Source: Halogeometricum rufum
GTDB lineage: Archaea; Halobacteriota; Halobacteria; Halobacteriales; Haloferacaceae
NCBI RefSeq assembly: GCF_900112175.1
Contig: NZ_FOYT01000001.1
Location: forward strand, 620,001-684,000
DNA: 64,000 nucleotides
Direction: 5' to 3'
Part shown: positions 41,050 to 64,000 of the stretch, one piece after another
Position numbering within the stretch: the stretch's first letter is position 1
How the letters are laid out: each line of letters opens with the position of its first letter
The notes under the pieces: generated by a model
What the model saw: only the letters and a program-made list of their open reading frames with translations
Told to the model about the DNA's origin: nothing
The model's database searches: none
Position numbers and translations under genes: made by a program

Positions 41050-41066
41050 ATGCCGCCTCCCGGATT
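41050..41066 (-). repeat. tRNA-Phe 3'-end fragment (candidate att copy)
   Basis: Seventeen bases identical to the 3' terminus of tRNA-Phe (compare 41172-41188) lie 122 bases downstream of the gene. An imperfect inverted repeat based on it follows: cggattcgacccg at 41061-41073 against cgggttcagaatccg at 41116-41130. Confidence 0.8.
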
Positions 41067-41172
41067 CGACCCGAGTCGAGACGGACCGCTCGCTTCGCTC
41101 GCGGGTGCGGCTCGCCGGGTTCAGAATCCGCTCGGGGGAGTCTTTTCACCGCTCACTTCGTTCGCAGGAAAA

Positions 41173-41246
41173 TGCCGCCTCCCGGATTTGAACCGGGGAC
41201 AGCTCGATCTTCAGTCGAGTGCTCTCCCAGTCTGAGCTAAGGCGGC
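41173..41246 (-). tRNA. tRNA-Phe (GAA)
   Basis: 74 bases on the minus strand form a full cloverleaf: acceptor gccgcct/aggcggc, D stem gctc/gagc, anticodon stem ctcga/tcgag with loop ctgaaga (anticodon GAA), T stem cccgg/ccggg with loop ttcaaat, discriminator A. No intron is seen. The CCA is not encoded. Confidence 0.95.
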
Positions 41247-41807: not shown

Positions 41808-41958
41808 TCGTCCGACACTTGCGCCGGCAGACGTGTGTGTCTATCGGCCCTCGGCGTCGAAACCCGTCAGCGAACCTGTTATTCGGCGTTTCGAGCTTTT
41901 TCGGCTCCCCTGCCTCCGGTCACCTCGCTGTTGCCCGTCGTCGCGTGTCGTCAGAACA

Positions 41959-41980
41959 GGCTCGGGCGGAGTCGAACCAC
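41959..41980 (-). repeat. tRNA-Val 3'-end fragment, distal copy
   Basis: Twenty-two bases identical to 42184-42205, that is the acceptor and T-arm end of tRNA-Val. It lies 108 bases from the next copy. Confidence 0.85.
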
Positions 41981-42066
41981 TCCGTCGACCTCGCTACGCT
42001 CGGTCGCCGCAAGGTTCGACCGCCCTCACAGATGTTTCTGGGCTCACGTTGTTCGCCACAGAAACA

Positions 42067-42088
42067 TGGGCTCGGGCGGAGTCGAACC
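42067..42088 (-). repeat. tRNA-Val 3'-end fragment, proximal copy
   Basis: Twenty-two bases identical to 42182-42203 of tRNA-Val, including the discriminator. It is directly preceded by the right arm of the inverted repeat ending at 42067. Confidence 0.85.
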
Positions 42089-42181
42089 CCGGTCACGCCG
42101 TTCGCTTCGCTCACTTCGTTCCCTGCTTCGACTCGCCCTCTCGTCGCAGAAATCCTGCTCGCTGTCGCTCGCAGATTTCAG

Positions 42182-42254
42182 TGGGCTCGGGCGGAGTCGA
42201 ACCACCGATCTCTTCCTTGTAAGGGAAGCGTCATAACCACTAGACCACGAGCCC
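42182..42254 (-). tRNA. tRNA-Val (TAC)
   Basis: 73 bases on the minus strand: acceptor gggctcg/cgagccc, anticodon stem cttcc/ggaag with loop cttacaa (anticodon TAC), T arm with loop ttcgact, discriminator A. No intron. Extra copies of its 3' end lie downstream. Confidence 0.94.
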
Positions 42255-49309: not shown

Positions 49310-49431
49310 CGCTCGTCGCGTAGCGCCGGGAAACTGGAGCGTCCTGACGGAGTCCCAGACGATGAGTCTGGGGCAGGTCAGGTCGCGAACGGACCGAAGT
49401 GAAGTGAGCGTCCTGACGGAGATTTGAACTC
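49310..49431. repeat. Long direct repeat, copy 1, ending inside tRNA-Arg-1
   Basis: This 122-base segment recurs at 49601-49728 with one difference: a 6-base insertion in the loop of an internal hairpin. It holds two copies of the tRNA-Arg 3' end: a 14-base fragment at 49339-49352 and the real 3' end of tRNA-Arg-1. The hairpin is cccagac (354-360)/gtctggg (366-372) with loop gatga. Confidence 0.92.
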
Positions 49432-49481
49432 CGGTCCCTGGCTCCGCAAGCCAAGAGGATAGTCCACTACCCTATCAGGAC
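49409..49481 (-). tRNA. tRNA-Arg (GCG), copy 1
   Basis: 73 bases on the minus strand: acceptor gtcctga/tcaggac, anticodon loop ttgcgga (anticodon GCG, Arg CGC/CGU), T stem cggag/ctccg with loop ttcaaat, discriminator G. Identical to copy 2 at 49837-49909 except at position 7 (A7 here, G7 there). Confidence 0.93.
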
Positions 49482-49836
49482 TCATCTCTGGATACAGCGC
49501 ATTCGCTTAAGACGGTTACGATGTCGGTACCGTTCACGGGGACGTTCGTTCGCCACGTACCGTCGGGTGGACGGGGACTCGGACCCGACAGAATCCGCTT
49601 CGCTCGTCGCGTAGCGCCGGGAAACTGGAGCGTCCTGACGGAGTCCCAGACGAACGAAGTGAGTCTGGGGCAGGTCAGGTCGCGAACGGACCGAAGTGAA
49701 GTGAGCGTCCTGACGGAGATTTGAACTCACTCGTTCTGTTCGCTGTCGCTCACGTCACTCGTTGCTCAAATCACCGCGTACGAGTTTTACAGCGTGTACG
49801 GTCGCTCGCGTTGCTCACGACGTAGCACGCTGAAAA
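49482..49836. other. Intergenic repeat region between two tRNA-Arg genes
   Basis: 355 bases without a gene. They hold most of direct-repeat copy 2, tRNA-Arg 3' fragments at 49630-49643 and 49705-49728, and runs of words such as cgctgtcgctcacgtcactcg. No open frame with haloarchaeal amino-acid composition is seen. Confidence 0.8.
49601..49728. repeat. Long direct repeat, copy 2, ending in a tRNA-Arg 3' fragment
   Basis: A 128-base copy of 49310-49431 with a 6-base insertion in the internal hairpin loop (cccagac 645-651, loop gaacgaagtga, gtctggg 663-669). Whereas copy 1 runs into a full tRNA-Arg, copy 2 ends after 24 bases of tRNA 3' sequence (49705-49728) and then diverges. Confidence 0.92.
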
Positions 49837-49909
49837 CGTCCTGACGGAGATTTGAACTCCGGTCCCTGGCTCCGCAAGCCAAGAGGATAGTCCACTACCC
49901 TACCAGGAC
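49837..49909 (-). tRNA. tRNA-Arg (GCG), copy 2
   Basis: 73 bases on the minus strand with the same arms and GCG anticodon as copy 1. The single difference makes the last acceptor pair G7-U66 instead of A7-U66. Both copies fold normally, so both may be functional. Confidence 0.92.
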
Positions 49910-55562: not shown

Positions 55563-55637
55563 GGGCCCTTAGCTCAGTCTGGTTAGAGCGCTCGGCTCAT
55601 AACCGAGTGGTCGATGGTTCGAATCCGTCAGGGCCCA
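55563..55637 (+). tRNA. tRNA with CAT anticodon (Ile2 or elongator Met)
   Basis: 75 bases: acceptor gggccct/agggccc, anticodon stem ctcgg/ccgag with loop ctcataa (anticodon CAT), T loop ttcgaat, discriminator A. The general shape resembles tRNA-Ile2 (modified CAT, reads AUA) more than elongator Met, but I cannot settle this by eye. It is not an initiator. The integrase gene begins 131 bases downstream, so its 3' end is the probable integration site. Confidence 0.93.
55616..55637 (+). other. Candidate attachment site at the tRNA 3' end
   Basis: The T arm and acceptor 3' end of the CAT tRNA, followed directly by element DNA with a tyrosine integrase. The second att copy is not present between here and 64000, so it should lie further right, outside the window. 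Confidence 0.6.
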
Positions 55638-55647
55638 TAGAAACGAC

Positions 55648-55668
55648 GGAGGTTCTTCGAGAGCCTCC
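55648..55668 (+). terminator. Hairpin after the CAT tRNA
   Basis: ggaggttct and agagcctcc form a 9-pair stem (one G-U pair) with a 3-base loop tcg, 10 bases past the tRNA end. It may end tRNA transcription or be part of the element's integrase-binding region. Confidence 0.5.
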
Positions 55669-55768
55669 CTCGTCCATTCTGTGGCCTCCGCTCGGAACTC
55701 GTGAGACAGTCCTCTGCAGCGTTCGGTACGTTCCTTTGCGCTCGTGGTCGCCGCAAGGAGACCAAAGG

Positions 55769-56599
55769 ATGTACGAGCTCAAACGAGACGACGTATTGGA
55801 CGATTACAGGCGGTTTCTGAAGGTCGAGCGCGGGCTGAACGAGACGACCATCGAACAGCACACGACGATGCTGCGGGTGTTCCTCGACCGCTACGAGCAG
55901 ATCCGTCCGCCGCAGGAACTCGCCAAGGAGTTCCAAGAGCACCTGATGGACGAGGGCTACTCGAACAGCCACGTCAACAACACGATGAAGGCGATTGATT
56001 ACTACTACGAGTTCCACGGCGAGCAGTTCGACTTCAACCGCCTCAATCGCCGCAAGAAGTTACCCGAGACGCTCAGCGAGAATCAGGTGAAGCGTATCCT
56101 GTACGCGTGCGACACCTACCGCGACTTCGCGATCATGAAGACGCTCACCTCCAGCGGGGTGCGCGCCTCGGAGCTGTGCGATCTGGACGTCGTCGACGCG
56201 GACCTGGACAACCGGACGCTTCTCATCCGTCAGGGGAAGTTCGACAAGGACGGCTACGCGAAGATCTCCGATACCTGCGCTGAGGCGATCAGTCAGTACC
56301 TCGAACGGCGGGACGACGACGCCGACCCCTTGTTCCTCTCTCGAACCGGTGACCGTCTGACTCGCAACGGGTTACTCCAGTTGGTCAAGCGACGGGCGCG
56401 GTCGGCTGGCATCGAGCAGAACGTGACGGTCCACATGTTCCGCCACTACTTCGCGACGAAGATGATCGAGAACGGTGCCGACATCTCGATCGTGAAGGAG
56501 CTGCTGCGTCACGACGACATCACCTCGACGATGAAGTATCTGCACATCAGCGGGGAGGCGCTGAGTGAGCAGTACGACCGGTACGTCGATGACGTCTGA
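55769..56599 (+). CDS. Tyrosine recombinase / integrase
   Basis: A 276-residue phage-type integrase. The SAM-like N-terminal domain (residues 1-90; LDDYRRFLKVERGLNETTIEQHTTML) precedes the catalytic core with the full set: Arg132 in SSGVRASELCDL, Lys157 in RQGKFDKDG, His222 and Arg225 in VHMFRHYFATKM, His248 in LLRHDDITSTM, and nucleophile Tyr257 in KYLHISGE. It catalyses integration and excision at the neighbouring tRNA. A Shine-Dalgarno-like aaggag lies about 10 bases before the ATG at 55769. Confidence 0.93.
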   Translation: MYELKRDDVLDDYRRFLKVERGLNETTIEQHTTMLRVFLDRYEQIRPPQELAKEFQEHLMDEGYSNSHVNNTMKAIDYYYEFHGEQFDFNRLNRRKKLPETLSENQVKRILYACDTYRDFAIMKTLTSSGVRASELCDLDVVDADLDNRTLLIRQGKFDKDGYAKISDTCAEAISQYLERRDDDADPLFLSRTGDRLTRNGLLQLVKRRARSAGIEQNVTVHMFRHYFATKMIENGADISIVKELLRHDDITSTMKYLHISGEALSEQYDRYVDDV

Positions 56600-56686
56600 A
56601 TCCGGCGGCGTGGTTCGACTCGGATTCTCTTCGGGTTGGCCCGTTCGGGGGTCGCGCAGCTATGGGGTCGACTGTCTGGAGAAGCG

Positions 56687-56836
56687 ATGCGAGACGGTCG
56701 CGAACAGGAGACGACGACCGTGAATCGAAAGTCAACCGAGAGGGCCCTCAACCGTTCCAAAGCCTGGGCCCTCGTCGGTTCACCGCCCCAAGAGTCTGAG
56801 GCATCCGGTCCACCAGAGGTGGTCCGGCGTGTCTAA
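56687..56836 (+). CDS. Small ORF in integrative-element operon (49 aa)
   Basis: Forty-nine codons from an ATG at 56687 to 56836: polar and charged (MRDGREQETTTVNRKSTERAL ... PPEVVRRV). It overlaps the next short frame by 8 bases, giving a chain of overlapping frames typical of coupled translation. No family recognised. An earlier in-frame start at 56636 would add 17 residues. Confidence 0.45.
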   Translation: MRDGREQETTTVNRKSTERALNRSKAWALVGSPPQESEASGPPEVVRRV

Positions 56837-56960
56837 CGACTCGGGTGGACGCATTGAGGGTTACGACGCCGGGTCGACGACGGTCGAATCCTCGTCCGCC
56901 GAGGCTTTGGAACACATCGGTCACCGGCAGGTCTGCTTCTGTCGGGGAGGTCGACCGTGA
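56829..56960 (+). CDS. Small CxC protein coupled to the winged-helix gene (43 aa)
   Basis: A GTG at 56829 opens 43 codons ending at 56958-56960: acidic (SNDSGGRIEGYDAG ...) with a C-terminal HRQVCFCRGG. The stop overlaps the GTG of the next gene (GTGA at 56957-56960), strong evidence for translational coupling. The C-x-C could bind metal alone or with a partner. No family recognised. Confidence 0.55.
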   Translation: MSNDSGGRIEGYDAGSTTVESSSAEALEHIGHRQVCFCRGGRP

Positions 56961-58612
56961 GACTCATCGAACCGAGTTGGCACGAGGTGTCCGCCAACTT
57001 CCTCTACGACGAGCACGGACTCGCCCCGTTCTTCGCCGCCGACCGCCGGGTCAAGCAGGGCGGTGGCTCGCAGACAGCCGAGTTCCGCGATGATGGCGAG
57101 CGTTGGGTCGTACGGCTCTACTACCAGAACTCCGGGATCGTCCATCCCGGTCCGAGAACGCCGACCGGCACCGAGTTCCGCCTCGACGAGATGCGCGAGT
57201 ATCGACTGGCGGTCGCTCGCCACGCCGAAGAGGATCCGACCGGTCAGCAGTCGTTCAACGCACACCTCGCCCCGCGCTGGTCGGGCATGAAAGTCGAGAA
57301 CGCGCGCGGTCGACGGAGCACGCTCGACGTTCCGATTCGGGAAGGCGTCAACGTCAAAGTCAGCGGGTCGAACATCGATATCTTCCGCTATCAGGACCTC
57401 CTCCGTCAGGCGGCCGAGGCAGTCGGTATCAACGGTCGGTACTTCGAGGACCCACACGAGTACTCGAACGTTCAGGACGCAGAGCGGTACGTTAGAATCC
57501 ACTGTGACGCATCGGGACCGATACACGCACGCGACGGACCGATAGCGAAGATTGGCCACCTCCTCGAACACGACCGGACGGGCTACCGCAAGGTCGTCCA
57601 GAACGACGACGATTCGCACGGCCGAAATCTCCCTGGCTACTACCACACCGTCACGCTGGGTCCGCGACGAGTGCGAGAGGCGTTCCCGTCTCACCGATTC
57701 CCGATCGAGGTGAAGCACTACTACGCACGCGAGGCGCGGTCGAAATCGAAGGACGACCCGCTCCGACACCCGAAGGTCGGCGTCTCGTATCAGGTAAGTC
57801 GGTGGGACGGGAAGATCGGGGTGACCGACGAAGACCTGGAGGAACTCCGACGCCAGTTGGACCGGACGCTTCACGCGGTGCTCATCGACGCGGGACTCAA
57901 CCCGACGCCGAGCAGCGACGGTGCTGGAACGACCTACGTACCTGATCCCTACTTCCCGGCAGACGTCGACGAGGACGCCGAGGAGCCGCCGAGTCTCGAT
58001 CTCACTCACATCCGTCACGAGCAGGAGAGCATCGTCGTCCGCGCTCTCACGGACGGCCTCTCGCCCGTCGAGTGGGAGTCGCTGGAGACGCTGGTCACCG
58101 ATGGCGGAAGAGTATCGCCGAGGGATATCGCGGCTCGTCACGATCGCCACGAAGAGAGTGTCCGACGAGCGCTCAGACGGATGGGCGAGATGGTTGAACG
58201 CGAGTACGGGACCGTCTCGCTGAAGAGCACCTACGTCGCAGAGTTGGTCTACGACGCGGTGCAGGAGGCAGAAGCGTCTCGCGAGTCGTTCAAGCGGGCC
58301 GCTGAGACCGCGGGAAAGGCGCTCGCGTCGGCGAGGCGTGGGCTCGACGACCGGACGAGTGCGCTTCTCGCCTGGTGTGCTCGGTACGATGTCGAAGTCG
58401 ACAGCCGCGGTGACGCAGTCCAACGGATTCGTCTCGGCGAACTGGATCGGGATTCCGACGCTGATCCCGAGATGCTCGTGAAGCGCGCGTACGAACTCTG
58501 GACTGACGCGAGGCAGGACGTCGAAGCGTTCCGTTCTGCTGTCGTCGAGTTTCGGCGGCCCGAGGACCGTGGCGTGCGGACGGTTGAGGCGTGGCGATTG
58601 CTGAGACGGTAG
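56957..58612 (+). CDS. Element-encoded 551-aa protein with C-terminal winged helix (DUF7845-like)
   Basis: A 551-residue protein. The N-terminal ~330 residues (WHEVSANFLYDEHGLAPFFAADRRVKQ; FNAHLAPRWSGMKVENARG; YHTVTLGPRRVREAFPSHRFPIEVKHYYAREA) match a family I recall from haloarchaeal integrative elements, usually beside integrases (DUF7845). A winged helix follows near residues 370-440 (LSPVEWESLETLVTDGGRVSPRDIAARHDRHEESVRRALRRM), then a helical tail. Replication, transfer or regulation are all possible; none is proven. GTG start at 56957 overlaps the upstream small gene. Confidence 0.75.
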   Translation: MRLIEPSWHEVSANFLYDEHGLAPFFAADRRVKQGGGSQTAEFRDDGERWVVRLYYQNSGIVHPGPRTPTGTEFRLDEMREYRLAVARHAEEDPTGQQSFNAHLAPRWSGMKVENARGRRSTLDVPIREGVNVKVSGSNIDIFRYQDLLRQAAEAVGINGRYFEDPHEYSNVQDAERYVRIHCDASGPIHARDGPIAKIGHLLEHDRTGYRKVVQNDDDSHGRNLPGYYHTVTLGPRRVREAFPSHRFPIEVKHYYAREARSKSKDDPLRHPKVGVSYQVSRWDGKIGVTDEDLEELRRQLDRTLHAVLIDAGLNPTPSSDGAGTTYVPDPYFPADVDEDAEEPPSLDLTHIRHEQESIVVRALTDGLSPVEWESLETLVTDGGRVSPRDIAARHDRHEESVRRALRRMGEMVEREYGTVSLKSTYVAELVYDAVQEAEASRESFKRAAETAGKALASARRGLDDRTSALLAWCARYDVEVDSRGDAVQRIRLGELDRDSDADPEMLVKRAYELWTDARQDVEAFRSAVVEFRRPEDRGVRTVEAWRLLRR

Positions 58613-58926
58613 TTTCCCCGGTCGGGTCGCGGTAGGTGACCTGTCCGGGGTAGTGGCGACGCTATCTGAGTACCGTTTTCTCGGTCGAATTTGCTTGTTG
58701 TACGGGTCTGTTACACCCTCTGTTAGTGGAGTTGAGGCGTCAGGAAGGGGTTGTTCATGCTTGGTAGTCGAGAGTGGTCGGCCGAAATCGAACGGGAGGG
58801 GTTTTGTTCTCTGTTAGGGGTGTGGCTAAGAAGCCACAGCACTAAAACACCGCCTCGCTTCGCTCGGCAGATTACAGCAGAAACATAGGGGCAGGCGCGC
58901 CTGATTTGCCCCGCCCTGACATCTAC
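58613..58926. other. Convergent intergenic region with short direct repeats
   Basis: About 314 bases between the convergent winged-helix and HEPN genes. It holds three copies of tctgtta (58707-58713, 58719-58725, 58810-58816); the first two are 12 bases apart. A G+C drop begins here. No gene is seen. Confidence 0.5.
58821..58838. terminator. Bidirectional hairpin between convergent genes
   Basis: tgtggct and agccaca form a 7-pair stem with loop aaga, between the stops at 58612 and 58927. It can act for either strand. Confidence 0.45.
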
Positions 58927-60534
58927 TCAGTCGTATCCATTCCAGTTCTGGGCGGACTGTCTCCTCTTCAGTTGTATGTTCTTCTCTTCAAGTTCATCTT
59001 CGAGATCTCCACACAATTCAGATATATCTGATACTGAATCTTCGATCGCTTTTTCCGATTTGTGCCCGTACCAGAGGATTCCTTCTGCAGCTTGTCTTTC
59101 AACTCCAGACGCAAACATTTCGAGGTATAAATCAATTAGCCCATCAAGTGCGATACGAAGAGACGCAGTATCACGACCATACACGCCTGTTTCTTCACCT
59201 CCGTGGACCACGTGATTGCGTCGCCGTCGGAGGACGTCGAGTCGCATTTTTAGAAGTTTGTATCTACTTGGCCGATTCCACGGTACACTTGAGTCGGCTC
59301 GATCTGGTTGGTTCTTAACCGCACCACTCCCATACTCTATGACATCTTTTGAATCAGATGATCCACCATCGGTCATTACCAGCGCTTCTACCGCTTGCCA
59401 CAAACAGTGGTACTCATCAATGATCGTATCGGCGGCAAACGACCGATGATACGCTGCCAAGCCTTTGCGCCAAGCTTCGGTTATTTCTTGATCACACCCA
59501 GTCCGGACAAATAGTTCGTCAACTTGCTCGGACTGTTCGCTTGACAGTCTGTGCGGCGACCCGTACTCCACCGCATTAGTCGTGCCAAAATTGAGACAGT
59601 TGTGGTCCTCGTCGCAGATGAGATGGAACGGTGGCATTGGCACGTGAGATTTGTCTATTGAGTCTGTATACTCCGGAATATCGTATGGCGCGTAGTCCGT
59701 CTCGTGATCGTAAACTACTGTAGCCACACCACCGAGAATAGCCTGAATCGTCCTCCTGAATTGAACATTGGCCTCTTCAACACTTGATGCATCGTACTTA
59801 ACCCGCCAATATGAGACGGTGTTGTCGCTAGGGAGTCCGTCAGAATCACAGTACTGACTAAACGACTCTTCTGGATGTTCAATATCCCGTACTGACCCGG
59901 AGCTTAAAGCGGACTCTACTACACTCTCCCATTGCTCAGAGGTAACTGTGCGGACTGCTGATCCTCCAATATTCAATACGGACGGGAGCCGGCCCCCGTC
60001 ACTCCCGACAAGATTGAGTGCACAGTAGATTTGGAACGTTCGACTTTCATCATTGGTGTCGTTTTTATTGAGAATTTTCTCGAAGATCGCATGAGGTTTC
60101 CAATCTTCAGGGAGCTGGCTTTGTCCTATGCCCAGATTCTCTTCGATACTGTGAATTTGACTTGGCGATAGGTCTTCCGCCCATGGACTTGGCGGACCAT
60201 CGAAAAGTGACCGGACACGGTCGTCATCATCTGCCCGTGCTTCATAGGCTTCTAGCAACTCTTCTTCACATCTAACGATGCTTTCGATTGCACTATGTAT
60301 AACGTGAACCCGGTGGTGGTCGGGGAGTCTGACGTCAAACCCAAATGTCTTCGAATCTCTATCTCCACTGTTAGAGTCTGGTATGTCGGGGTCTAGTCTG
60401 TGACTGAGTATAGCAAGAATCTGAGGGTATCGTTCTCCGTGAGCCCAAATACTAGTCGTTTCTCCTTGTTCGGCTGCATAGCGGACCTCCTTAAGTGCCC
60501 AATTCAACACGAGACCCGCTGCGACGGAACTCAT
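58927..60534 (-). CDS. HEPN-domain protein, putative ribonuclease toxin partner
   Basis: A 535-residue protein from strikingly low-G+C DNA. The first ~330 residues are not recognised (GFDVRLPDHHRVHVIHSAIES; ICDEDHNCLNFGTTNAV) and may sense invasion. The C-terminal region (about 360-475) looks like an ApeA-type HEPN: FAADTIIDEYHCLWQAVEAL, then the R-N-x3-H signature at 439-444 in RRRRNHVVHGGEE. HEPN ribonucleases with this motif cleave RNA in abortive infection. A Lys/Glu coiled coil ends it (~490-520). Its ATG overlaps the methylase stop by 4 bases, so the two are translated together. Confidence 0.78.
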   Translation of the reverse strand: MSSVAAGLVLNWALKEVRYAAEQGETTSIWAHGERYPQILAILSHRLDPDIPDSNSGDRDSKTFGFDVRLPDHHRVHVIHSAIESIVRCEEELLEAYEARADDDDRVRSLFDGPPSPWAEDLSPSQIHSIEENLGIGQSQLPEDWKPHAIFEKILNKNDTNDESRTFQIYCALNLVGSDGGRLPSVLNIGGSAVRTVTSEQWESVVESALSSGSVRDIEHPEESFSQYCDSDGLPSDNTVSYWRVKYDASSVEEANVQFRRTIQAILGGVATVVYDHETDYAPYDIPEYTDSIDKSHVPMPPFHLICDEDHNCLNFGTTNAVEYGSPHRLSSEQSEQVDELFVRTGCDQEITEAWRKGLAAYHRSFAADTIIDEYHCLWQAVEALVMTDGGSSDSKDVIEYGSGAVKNQPDRADSSVPWNRPSRYKLLKMRLDVLRRRRNHVVHGGEETGVYGRDTASLRIALDGLIDLYLEMFASGVERQAAEGILWYGHKSEKAIEDSVSDISELCGDLEDELEEKNIQLKRRQSAQNWNGYD

Positions 60535-63500
60535 CCGTTGATCCCCTCAAATTCTTCTTTTACCTGTTCGAAATAGGCTTCATTCATCAGGCGTGGGTTA
60601 CTAACGCGATGGAAATCATCGCAAATGAACTCTACCTCCTCTTGATTGAACCCATACGCGTCAAAAACGGCTGCATCCACTTGTGCTTGTACCTCACGCC
60701 GCTCATCTGATGAGCCAGGTTCGATGATCTTGTCACTGACTCCAAGCTCGCTTGCAAGATCCTCGAAGGGTTCCCCGTAACAATTGAGACGGGCAGCCCT
60801 GCGCCATACCTCTTCAAAGTGTTCATCGTCGTCAGTAAGGTGTGGGAGTTGCGACTCACGGAACTTGTACATCACCACACTCTTGTCCACCTTAGTCCGC
60901 ATTAGATAATCGAACGCGAGACTGTTCAGCACCCCAACCGCGGCAAACAGTTCTTCATCTGTGAATATGCGTTTGTACGCACTATGAAGTGTGTCGTTAG
61001 ATAGATCCGAGAGATCTAGATCAACTTCTAACGGCCGGACAGTGTGCAGCTTGTTGTGGCAGACGTATCCTTTCGGGATTACGGTCGCGATCATCGTCCG
61101 CTCGTCGGTTGGTTGAGCAATGTCTCGATAGACGATTCGGTGTTCTTCACAATCGAGTTTGACGTCATCTTCTGAGAGCGGTGTTCCCCGTGTTTCCTCC
61201 AACAGATCGTTGACCACAGACTTCTTCGAGCCACTCTGAGTGACTCCTGTCTGCTCTCGGATTGCCGCAGATTCACCGACAAAATCGTACAGTTCGGATT
61301 TCAGGTTCCGAACCTGTTTCTCTCGAATTCGCTGTTTCGCGCTCCGTTCCGACCCATCGTCTACTGACCAGAACCTTGGTGGTTCTATATTAAACGCTGA
61401 GTCGTCGTACTGGAACGAATAGATGTTCCGCCCACCCAGGACTGGATAGTCTGCTTCCTCTCTCTCCTCGAAGAAGCGGTCGGAGTCGCTTGTTCTATGG
61501 AGCTCGCAGTAAGGATTTGCATACCAACTGTCGTCAACACTTCGACTTGCTTCGGGGTGCTGAATAATTGTCTTTAGTACATCCACCTGTTCTTGCGTTT
61601 GGACGATTGGGAAGGTGCCAGCAGTTGGTGAGTAATCGGCGAGTACAGATGCAGGTATATCCAGTAATCTCGACGAATCTCCCTCCTTGAGTTCTCGGAG
61701 GATTCGGAGGTCGGGCTGACCAAAGATACCGCGCAAGTGGTCTGTACTTCCAGAGTTCTTAAATACAACAATCCCAAATTTGTATCGGCTATCGATATTC
61801 TGGAAGATGCCGTTGTTTTTGAACCCAATAATGGACTCAGTTGTTTTCGACTCCATCAGCTCCTGACGGAGATCCTTCGTTGCGAGCCCAGTGAAGATGT
61901 TTCCAGGGAGGATCTGAGCGACATACGTACTTTCATCAGCCAGCTTATAGATCCGTTCTAAGAAGAGTGCGGAAAGATCGTTCTCTGTAGACCGTTTCCG
62001 TCCATCAACCTTGGGGTCCTGAAACTCGTAGTAATTGCTACTGTGGAAATACTCTGCGAGTCGGTGGATCTGTTCTTCATAGTGGTTATACTCCTCTTCG
62101 AGTCCGGGATTCGCTTTGGATACCTTGTCTATCTCTTCTTCTTGCTCACTCGGTAGTAGCGTTCTGAATGACTCAATCCGGTCCGCGTAGAACTCGTCAC
62201 GAGTCGGACGAATCCGGTCCCACGGCGGATTACCGATGATCACGTCGAACCAGCCTTCTTGATAGACCTTTGCGAACTCGACCACCCAGTGGAATGGGTT
62301 GTAATCATTGACTTCTTCCTGAGTAACCTCCTCAAGCCCAGCCTGCTCAAATTCGTTCTTGACTCGTTCGTTGAGGTCATCACGCGCAGTATTCATCTTA
62401 TTTTCAACTTCCTCGCGAAGTTCAACTGCACGCGCCCCTGACGCGGCTTCTTGATCTTCGATGAGGTCTGCGACTTCGTCGATGTAGCTCTCAACGGTAT
62501 TTTCCCCGAAGTCATCCAGCGTGGTATTATCGTCGAGAACGCTTTCTTCGTCGGTGATGAACCCAATCAAGGAGTTTCCGTCTCTGATGTTGAAATCGAT
62601 ATTCGGTAGTGGTTCTACGCGATCGGGGTCATTCTCAATTTGTGCCACCATCGACAACCACAGTCGGAGTTTACAGATCTGTACAGCTCCGTCGTCGATG
62701 TCAACACCATAAAGATTGTTCTGGATAATCAGTCGCTTGGCAGTGAGCTCCTCCTGATCTGGGTCAAGCTGGACTGCAGTTTTGAGCGGTGACTCTTGGT
62801 CATATTCGTCGGCCGTGTGAGTCCGCTTGAGCGTCCGAATAGATCGGAGATATAGTTTGAGTAGAACCTCTTCGGCGGCAAGGAGGAAGGCCCCACTTCC
62901 CACTGCAGGATCCAGAACCGCGGTCTCGAGAAGGACGTCTTTGTAGAACGTCTCTACGTCCCGATTGAGGGAGAAGACTTGCTCGAGCGAATCGTATTGC
63001 TGTGTAACCGATGAGTGTTCATTGAGTTCGTCAATTAGATATGGCCGAATCGACCGCTGGGCCATATACTCGGTGATTTCTTCGGGGGTGTAGTAGGCTC
63101 CCAGTTCCTTTTGATTGACTGTCTGTTCGAAGATATGCCCCAAGATCTCCGGTGAGAGGTATTTTGGTTCGACAATATCGAGTCGCTCGTCGACGTTCCA
63201 ATTCCACTCGTCGAGGAAACTCAATATCCTGCGGTAATTGTCATTCCGCTCTTCACTTGTCCGACCGAGTCGGATTCGTGGATTCTTGTTTTCGACGGTG
63301 GATTTTGCGAACAACCCGCCGTTCAGGTATGGAAGGTTGTCATCAGAGATGAATGAGGTGTCGATCTCACTATCTCCGTCAGCACCTTGGTCTTCTTCGG
63401 CGAGGACTTTGAAAAAGAGCGGCTCGTAGAATGCTGAGTAAACGTCGTTCTTTTCTTCGGCTGCATCATCGTGCTTCTCAAGGAGATAATCGGAGTTTCC

Positions 63501-64000
63501 GTTGAGCAGGCCCTTCTCCTGGATGAAATGGAGGAAGATGAGCCTGTTAAATAGTGTCTGGACATACCGGGCTTTCGCCTGGCCAGGTTTGTCCACATCT
63601 GATGACAGACCGATGACTTCGCCGATTAGCTCCGTTCTGTGAGTCTCGAATTCGTCATAGAATCGCTTGACAACCTCACGTGTGTCGTAGAGATTCTGAA
63701 TAGATGTAACGTCATCTGCTTTTAAATCGTTCAGCTTGTCCAGGACAGTATACTTCCGCCCATCTCCCGTGAACTGCTGCTTTTTGAATGAATATCGCTG
63801 ATAGGTGGTCTCGGTTCGTTCGCCAAACGATGGCTTTCGCGTGACAAACGTATATTGTTCGAAGTCATCAATGACAAAACAGGTCCGTTTGTTGTTGTCC
63901 AGAACACCCCGATAATCCATCGGTGACTTCCCCTCCTCGGCCAGAATGATTAGTATGAATTGACTCTCAGAGAGTTTTAGAACACGAAACGATGCCTCCT
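60531..64000 (-). CDS. Eco57I-type adenine DNA methylase, restriction/defence-like, N-terminus outside window
   Basis: A very large N6-adenine methylase, open from the stop at 60531 to the window end, so the start is missing. From the internal ATG at 63920 there are 1129 residues; the frame continues upstream in clearly protein-like sequence (ESQFILIILAEEGKSP). Relative to that ATG: motif X GAYYTPEEI near 274, motif I VLDPAVGSGAF at 335-345, catalytic NPPW at 564-567 in VIIGNPPWDRI, and a C-terminal target-recognition region (QTQEQVDVLKTII ... LGGRNIYSF). It resembles type IIG enzymes and BREX PglX. An N-terminal nuclease, if any, lies outside. Confidence 0.85.
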   Translation of the reverse strand, partial: EASFRVLKLSESQFILIILAEEGKSPMDYRGVLDNNKRTCFVIDDFEQYTFVTRKPSFGERTETTYQRYSFKKQQFTGDGRKYTVLDKLNDLKADDVTSIQNLYDTREVVKRFYDEFETHRTELIGEVIGLSSDVDKPGQAKARYVQTLFNRLIFLHFIQEKGLLNGNSDYLLEKHDDAAEEKNDVYSAFYEPLFFKVLAEEDQGADGDSEIDTSFISDDNLPYLNGGLFAKSTVENKNPRIRLGRTSEERNDNYRRILSFLDEWNWNVDERLDIVEPKYLSPEILGHIFEQTVNQKELGAYYTPEEITEYMAQRSIRPYLIDELNEHSSVTQQYDSLEQVFSLNRDVETFYKDVLLETAVLDPAVGSGAFLLAAEEVLLKLYLRSIRTLKRTHTADEYDQESPLKTAVQLDPDQEELTAKRLIIQNNLYGVDIDDGAVQICKLRLWLSMVAQIENDPDRVEPLPNIDFNIRDGNSLIGFITDEESVLDDNTTLDDFGENTVESYIDEVADLIEDQEAASGARAVELREEVENKMNTARDDLNERVKNEFEQAGLEEVTQEEVNDYNPFHWVVEFAKVYQEGWFDVIIGNPPWDRIRPTRDEFYADRIESFRTLLPSEQEEEIDKVSKANPGLEEEYNHYEEQIHRLAEYFHSSNYYEFQDPKVDGRKRSTENDLSALFLERIYKLADESTYVAQILPGNIFTGLATKDLRQELMESKTTESIIGFKNNGIFQNIDSRYKFGIVVFKNSGSTDHLRGIFGQPDLRILRELKEGDSSRLLDIPASVLADYSPTAGTFPIVQTQEQVDVLKTIIQHPEASRSVDDSWYANPYCELHRTSDSDRFFEEREEADYPVLGGRNIYSFQYDDSAFNIEPPRFWSVDDGSERSAKQRIREKQVRNLKSELYDFVGESAAIREQTGVTQSGSKKSVVNDLLEETRGTPLSEDDVKLDCEEHRIVYRDIAQPTDERTMIATVIPKGYVCHNKLHTVRPLEVDLDLSDLSNDTLHSAYKRIFTDEELFAAVGVLNSLAFDYLMRTKVDKSVVMYKFRESQLPHLTDDDEHFEEVWRRAARLNCYGEPFEDLASELGVSDKIIEPGSSDERREVQAQVDAAVFDAYGFNQEEVEFICDDFHRVSNPRLMNEAYFEQVKEEFEGING

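Follow-up and report, generated by a model that had tools for sequence, protein, structure and literature searches.

Haloarchaeal tRNA genes are frequently followed by coding-free cassettes of about 65-200 bp, each containing a hairpin that has a copy of the tRNA's own 3' end as its far strand. These cassettes are probably miniature, integrase-less insertions at tRNA attachment sites, served by an integrase in trans and reshuffled by recombination. We infer their mobility from the cores that they share and from the exactness of their joints; an integrase would be the agent of this movement, and the hairpin would be the recombination or binding site.

The cassettes are described here from a window of 64,000 nt of Halogeometricum rufum DNA, the whole stretch that was analysed, in which the initial annotation had reported two full tRNA-Arg(GCG) genes differing at one base. 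The two are indeed identical at 72 of 73 positions, and the minus-strand order is tRNA B, a 131-bp cassette, a 75-bp cassette, a 149-bp spacer, tRNA A and a 69-bp cassette (Table 1). Three 3' fragments of the tRNA had been listed with lengths of 24, 14 and 14 bases. All three are present, but at 23, 13 and 13 nt, the longer figures having counted one further C that is by chance common to the following cassettes. As had been stated, the fragments keep the tRNA 3' terminus, and every copy stops exactly at the discriminator base. The direct repeat of 122 and 128 bases also holds, its arms being identical except for a 6-base difference in the loop. The repeat spans a cassette, the tRNA end before it and the first part of the sequence after it, so that neighbouring units have been copied or homogenised. 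In the 131-bp cassette, segmentation gives the HP1 palindrome followed by a second hairpin, HP2, with the tRNA copy as its far strand; the DNA fold of this cassette is -26.4 kcal/mol (z -1.6), and a stronger orthologue reaches z -7.4. No gene was recognised inside the three tRNA-Arg cassettes of 69-131 bp.

Table 1. The tRNA-Arg(GCG) pair of Halogeometricum rufum, its adjoining cassettes and further cassettes of the window (window coordinates).
Feature	Position	Strand	Basis or remark
tRNA-Arg(GCG) copy B, host of the cassette array	49837..49909	-	ARAGORN; Rfam RF00005, 47.7 bits
Y-type cassette, 131 bp, behind copy B	49706..49836	-	segmentation
HP1 palindrome of the 131-bp Y cassette, abutting the tRNA end	about 49785-49836	-	
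Exact tRNA-Arg 3'-end copy, 23 nt, T-loop to discriminator	49706..49728	-	
X-type cassette, 75 bp; outer hairpin stem CCTGAC/GTCAGG	49631..49705	-	
Exact tRNA 3'-end copy, 13 nt, CTCCGTCAGGACG	49631..49643	-	
Spacer (149 bp), including CTTAAGACGGTTACGATGT, conserved upstream of tRNA copy A	49482..49630	-	
tRNA-Arg(GCG) copy A	49409..49481	-	ARAGORN; Rfam, 51.1 bits
X-type cassette, 69 bp, behind copy A	49340..49408	-	fold z -2.6
Exact tRNA 3'-end copy, 13 nt, behind copy A	49340..49352	-	
Direct-repeat arm, 128 bp	49601..49728	-	
Direct-repeat arm, 122 bp: X cassette, end of tRNA A and start of following sequence	49310..49431	-	
Two Y-type cassettes behind tRNA-Val(TAC) (42181-42254)	41956..42180	-	3'-end copies
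Cassette behind tRNA-Phe(GAA) (41173-41246)	41051..41172	-	copy 41051-41072, 2 mismatches

The arrangement is not a peculiarity of one locus, a reading that is ruled out by its recurrence at tRNA-Val and tRNA-Phe in the window and, in a genome-wide survey, at about half of the genome's tRNAs. Behind tRNA-Val(TAC), the 3'-end copies at about 42067 and 41957 have 0 and 2 mismatches in 21. The survey covered H. rufum (with the surroundings of all 47 tRNA genes), Natrinema zhouii and Halomarina halobia, and scored the tRNA's own 21-nt 3' end, from the GTTC of the T-loop to base 73, with up to 3 mismatches and up to 450 bp downstream. An own copy was found at 59 of 133 tRNA genes (23/47, 18/45 and 18/41 in the three genomes), against 4 of 5562 non-cognate control pairs (2/2078, 1/1894 and 1/1590, in the same order). 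The copies of H. rufum lie mostly 50-400 bp downstream. For ends of 20-21 nt the best non-cognate match typically has 8-9 mismatches, while own ends are matched with 0. Upstream, the own 3' end occurs in no more than two cases in any of the genomes, as tandem tRNA copies would lead one to expect, and among non-haloarchaeal members of the phylum a copy occurs at 1 of 39 tRNAs. Chance matches are thereby ruled out, as they are by the opposite-strand control. The copies also have a sharp boundary at the T-loop: in 51 of 64, the match continues for only 0-1 nt beyond GTTC. Tandem near-identical cassettes, in which HP1 is repeated after each copy, were seen at several tRNA-downstream loci (L070, L091 and L096 among them), and decayed cassettes with truncated right arms at tRNA-Glu(TTC) and Leu(TAA); together these suggest a steady turnover.

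Two types of cassette can be distinguished by the length of the copy. Y cassettes measure about 100-200 bp and usually consist of HP1, which abuts the tRNA end, and lastly the imperfect hairpin HP2, in which a tRNA copy of 21-25 nt forms the right strand and an approximate reverse complement of the T-arm the left. X cassettes are about 65-150 bp long; their copy measures 13 nt, and the left arm of their hairpin mirrors the acceptor strand. Between the hairpin arms stand recurring cores, A (GAATCAGGGAGC..GCGACCGTGGTTC), B, C, D and E, and identical or near-identical cores are found behind different tRNAs in different genera and orders. The core behind Halomarina Glu(CTC), for example, is 98% identical over 48 nt to that behind Leu(CAA), and this Glu/Leu core is 94% identical to the Natrinema Ser(TGA)/Phe cassettes. 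Core families also follow one another, as in the series of three at tRNA-Glu(CTC). Separately, a sequence behind tRNA-Arg(CCG) (L082) and another behind a tRNA-Arg(TCG) cassette (L084) look akin by eye (..GATTTGAACACGTG..CGTCGTCGTGGCTTCCGCTAGCGCCGT..), and may represent the left end of a single element family. A kink-turn or C/D-box reading of internal loops, made by eye only, found no support and was set aside.

The arms of these hairpins bear on how the cassettes arose. In 56 of 64 cases the left arm of HP2 is a closer fit to its own tRNA than to other tRNAs on average. Across eight Y cassettes from a single genus (L067 being included in the alignment with its loop insert omitted), 10 of 48 HP1 pairs have changed on both sides and 98% are paired, while HP2 is nearly invariant in the same eight. 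Both the inverted T-arm copy on the left side of the hairpin and the compensatory changes in HP1, as well as the near-identical 122/128-bp repeat, could be explained by copying errors, in which replication would switch template at palindromes and short repeats would recombine, so duplicating the tRNA end along with the hairpin behind it, and imperfect-palindrome correction and gene conversion would hold both arms matched to the tRNA. However, copying errors are an unlikely source of the cassettes as a whole, as they leave unexplained why unrelated tRNAs of different orders are followed by the same non-tRNA cores, why different families stand in series, and why the fixed 21- and 13-nt boundaries recur in integrase elements.

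Core A illustrates how closely the cassettes are tied to tRNA ends. A pattern search across 84,980 species returned 79 matches in 73 stretches, apparently all haloarchaeal: the titles are haloarchaeal in every case but one, a metagenome bin labelled only Euryarchaeota. Seventy-two of the 79 matches sit 66-418 bp behind a same-strand tRNA, with a mode of about 70-85 bp and more than 25 kinds of tRNA represented; the 3' copy has 0 mismatches to its tRNA in 35 and at most 2 in 53. The remaining seven are located at the end of a contig or locus or behind an integrated element, and none of the 79 was demonstrably away from a tRNA end.

The number and order of cassettes vary. Among 30 tRNA-Arg(GCG) loci of one genus, probably Halorubrum given that G125 and Halorubrum salsamenti agree in a tRNA coordinate, the array is X in 15, YX in eight and absent in two, and XY, Y, YXX, XYX and XXX occur once each. 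A similar downstream flank carries X (L268), YX (L260, L264, L265) or XY (L259), and the variants are joined exactly at the tRNA end. Simple tandem slippage, which the initial annotation had named as a possible objection, fails as the whole account given mixed families in series and both XY and YX orders across related loci. Its other worry, an assembly artefact, is removed by the same type of array at tRNA-Arg(GCG) in congeners and in dozens of other genomes. Repeated site-specific insertion and loss, one of the two processes it had proposed, is the reading with the best support, from the exact joints, from the variable order and number among similar flanks and from integrase elements with the same cores. 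The fragments are nevertheless not leftovers of insertion at one locus, as they end structured coding-free cassettes that belong to recurring, class-wide families. Recombination between tRNA ends, the second process, plays a part, as indicated by the near-identity of the direct repeat and by the likeness of units within one genome.

The same distribution has to be weighed against a selected functional RNA or DNA structure, for example a tRNA trailer for processing or termination whose hairpin needs the tRNA's own 3' end. Presence throughout the class, narrow spacing, conserved cores and compensated HP1 stems would all fit such a role. However, cassettes are missing or decayed at about half of the tRNAs of each genome, the same tRNA may have or lack a cassette among species of one genus, and their order varies. 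Moreover, only the tRNA family reaches the curated threshold in Rfam, with no known structured RNA matching the cassettes. We therefore regard a selected structure as quite improbable.

The agent of insertion is suggested by elements that carry an integrase, as the attachment core is common to these and to the cassettes, with both 21-nt and 13-nt versions in each. Core A cassettes without a tRNA directly upstream pointed the way to the ends of integrated elements (L146, L166, L168), which carry tyrosine integrases (Pfam PF00589) with relatives in 134 of 145 genomes of the class. Among the integrase loci examined, about 30 have a tRNA 3' copy where attR is expected; its distance from the integrase is 37-260 bp in most cases, and it is often the same exact 21 nt as in Y cassettes. 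At five loci (L146, L300, L303, L308, L343) a 13-nt acceptor core, the core length of X cassettes, is followed by an intact cassette. The cassettes might accordingly be viewed as decoys, extra attachment cores equal to those of the integrase elements that would draw arriving integrative elements away from the tRNA gene. This seems highly improbable, as in L146, L168 and the C7 element described below the element stands between tRNA and cassette, implying that the proximal site was used; moreover, insertion at a tRNA restores it, so there would be little to protect.

Some cassette ends also occur on integrase elements. Core E (GAGGTTC-palindrome-GGTTCTC) has 13 occurrences in the 1.59 Mb examined; 11 abut a tRNA copy, including two that form ends of integrase elements (L166, Arg; L290, Val), so that two element ends and the cassettes have a hairpin type in common. 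The tRNA-Tyr cassette of H. rufum likewise resembles the integrase-side end of L324 (92% over 38 nt); no such ends were found for cores A-D. Overall, 3 of 25 integrase-side ends match a cassette, compared with 5 of 140 random stretches, and one of the three is convincing, which leaves cores A-D without an identified parent element. The idea that cassettes are in general deletion products of present integrase elements is thus weakly supported. A viral origin was rejected, as pattern and protein searches of IMG/VR were empty: three patterns had no match, and the integrase had no viral relative there.

Two integrated elements of H. rufum are also of note. One, of about 4 kb, lies in tRNA-Arg(CCG) on a 93-kb contig (C7:42250-46638; L036, L385), and has its integrase at C7:42494-43501, an adjoining tRNA copy, then an A-type cassette and a second copy. 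The A hairpin was considered as the end of this element itself and dismissed, the tRNA copy standing between integrase and hairpin. The other concerns the claim that no integrase remains beside the tRNA-Arg array, which is correct; a different integrase element, with an anticodon core, begins 6 kb away at tRNA-Met(CAT). This element of 27.7 kb runs from 55563 to 64000 in the window and on to C1:703291, with the integrase (about 55765-56599) just behind the tRNA and a DUF7845 protein next. At its distal end, up to C1:703291, stand 42 nt identical to the 3' half of the tRNA, and its core reaches the anticodon loop, in contrast to the 21-nt T-loop cores.

The two full tRNA-Arg(GCG) genes had been taken as part of the array of their own 3' ends. 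By sequence comparison, however, duplication of the gene is a distinct event, older than the cassettes and common to another genus. The congeners G001-G004 also have the pair, G003 with three copies, as do G011 and G037 of a second genus, and each copy, where read, has its own conserved upstream region (CTTAAGACGGTTACGATGT for A, a TTGAAA-containing one for B). The copies lie about 1.7-2 kb apart in G002, G003 and G004, enclosing the gene for a 221-aa HTH_10/BAT regulator (L033, L034, L035), whereas in H. rufum and G001 they are a few hundred bases apart and this gene is not between them. In H. rufum it was either lost or never present there.

Under the preferred explanation, miniature coding-free cassettes would insert one by one at the tRNA 3' end, which would act as the attachment site. 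Each insertion would keep the tRNA whole and displace a copy of the 3' end, either 21-23 nt from the T-loop onwards or 13 nt belonging to the acceptor stem, to the far side. Every displaced copy would be a possible new target, allowing arrays to grow, and recombination between copies would delete, reorder and homogenise the units. The recombinase would most likely be a haloarchaeal tyrosine integrase acting in trans, as full elements with such integrases occupy the same sites with the same cores. However, a cassette moving between tRNAs must gain both the end of the new tRNA and a matching left hairpin arm, for which plain site-specific recombination is insufficient. Palindrome correction and gene conversion would be likely helpers in fitting the left arm to the new tRNA, and target-templated acquisition of the arm is a bolder possibility. 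The more specific proposal, of class-wide mobile hairpins of ~100 bp, coding-free and present only at tRNA 3' ends, which spread and take both arms from each new host tRNA, is put forward tentatively and is on balance doubtful.

Several known systems have features in common with the cassettes. Integron attC cassettes form arrays of variable order with an imperfect hairpin at each joint; the tRNA cassettes are similar in their hairpin-ended units and variable order, but have no genes and derive their site from the host tRNA. The rtT repeats of E. coli tyrT are 178-bp tandem copies, each with a tRNA 3' end, and are likewise tandem units containing that end, although rtT is restricted to one locus; within Rfam, rtT had no match at the tRNA-Arg cassettes. 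Neither the transposon terminal inverted repeats nor the tRNA-independent sites of classical MITEs are seen, the cassette boundary being the tRNA 3' end. Similarly to the tRNA-integrated islands detected by Islander, cassettes leave a displaced cognate 3' fragment downstream on the same strand and the target restored (PMC4383910). However, they are 65-200 bp long and have neither genes nor an integrase, and Islander rejects tRNA-fragment intervals shorter than 2 kb or without an integrase, so that this class would stay hidden by design (PMC4383910). Archaeal tyrosine-integrase elements in tRNA genes also have 3'-end cores with a varying 5' limit, but differ from cassettes, which lack integrase and genes and in which different families pile up behind one tRNA (PMC8371274). 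In Haloquadratum, the portions available of one paper describe MITEs, PATEs, small mobile repeats of ~110 bp and repeat-mediated deletions, together with tRNA duplications of 22 and 43 nt tied to prophages (PMC3119063). These mobile repeats are, like cassettes, short, coding-free, palindromic and dispersed in a haloarchaeon; as described there, they target other mobile elements or carry transposon ends, whereas cassettes are bounded by tRNA 3' ends and lie behind the tRNA, and those portions hold no description of tRNA-end cassettes (PMC3119063). Nor was a published description found in the literature searched, which largely excluded subscription papers.

Nearly half of the tRNA genes in three haloarchaea thus carry apparent gene-free insertion arrays. 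The cassettes record the use of attachment sites tRNA by tRNA and offer very small integration substrates with which archaeal integrases may be dissected. They also raise the question of how a mobile hairpin would gain arms that match each new tRNA.
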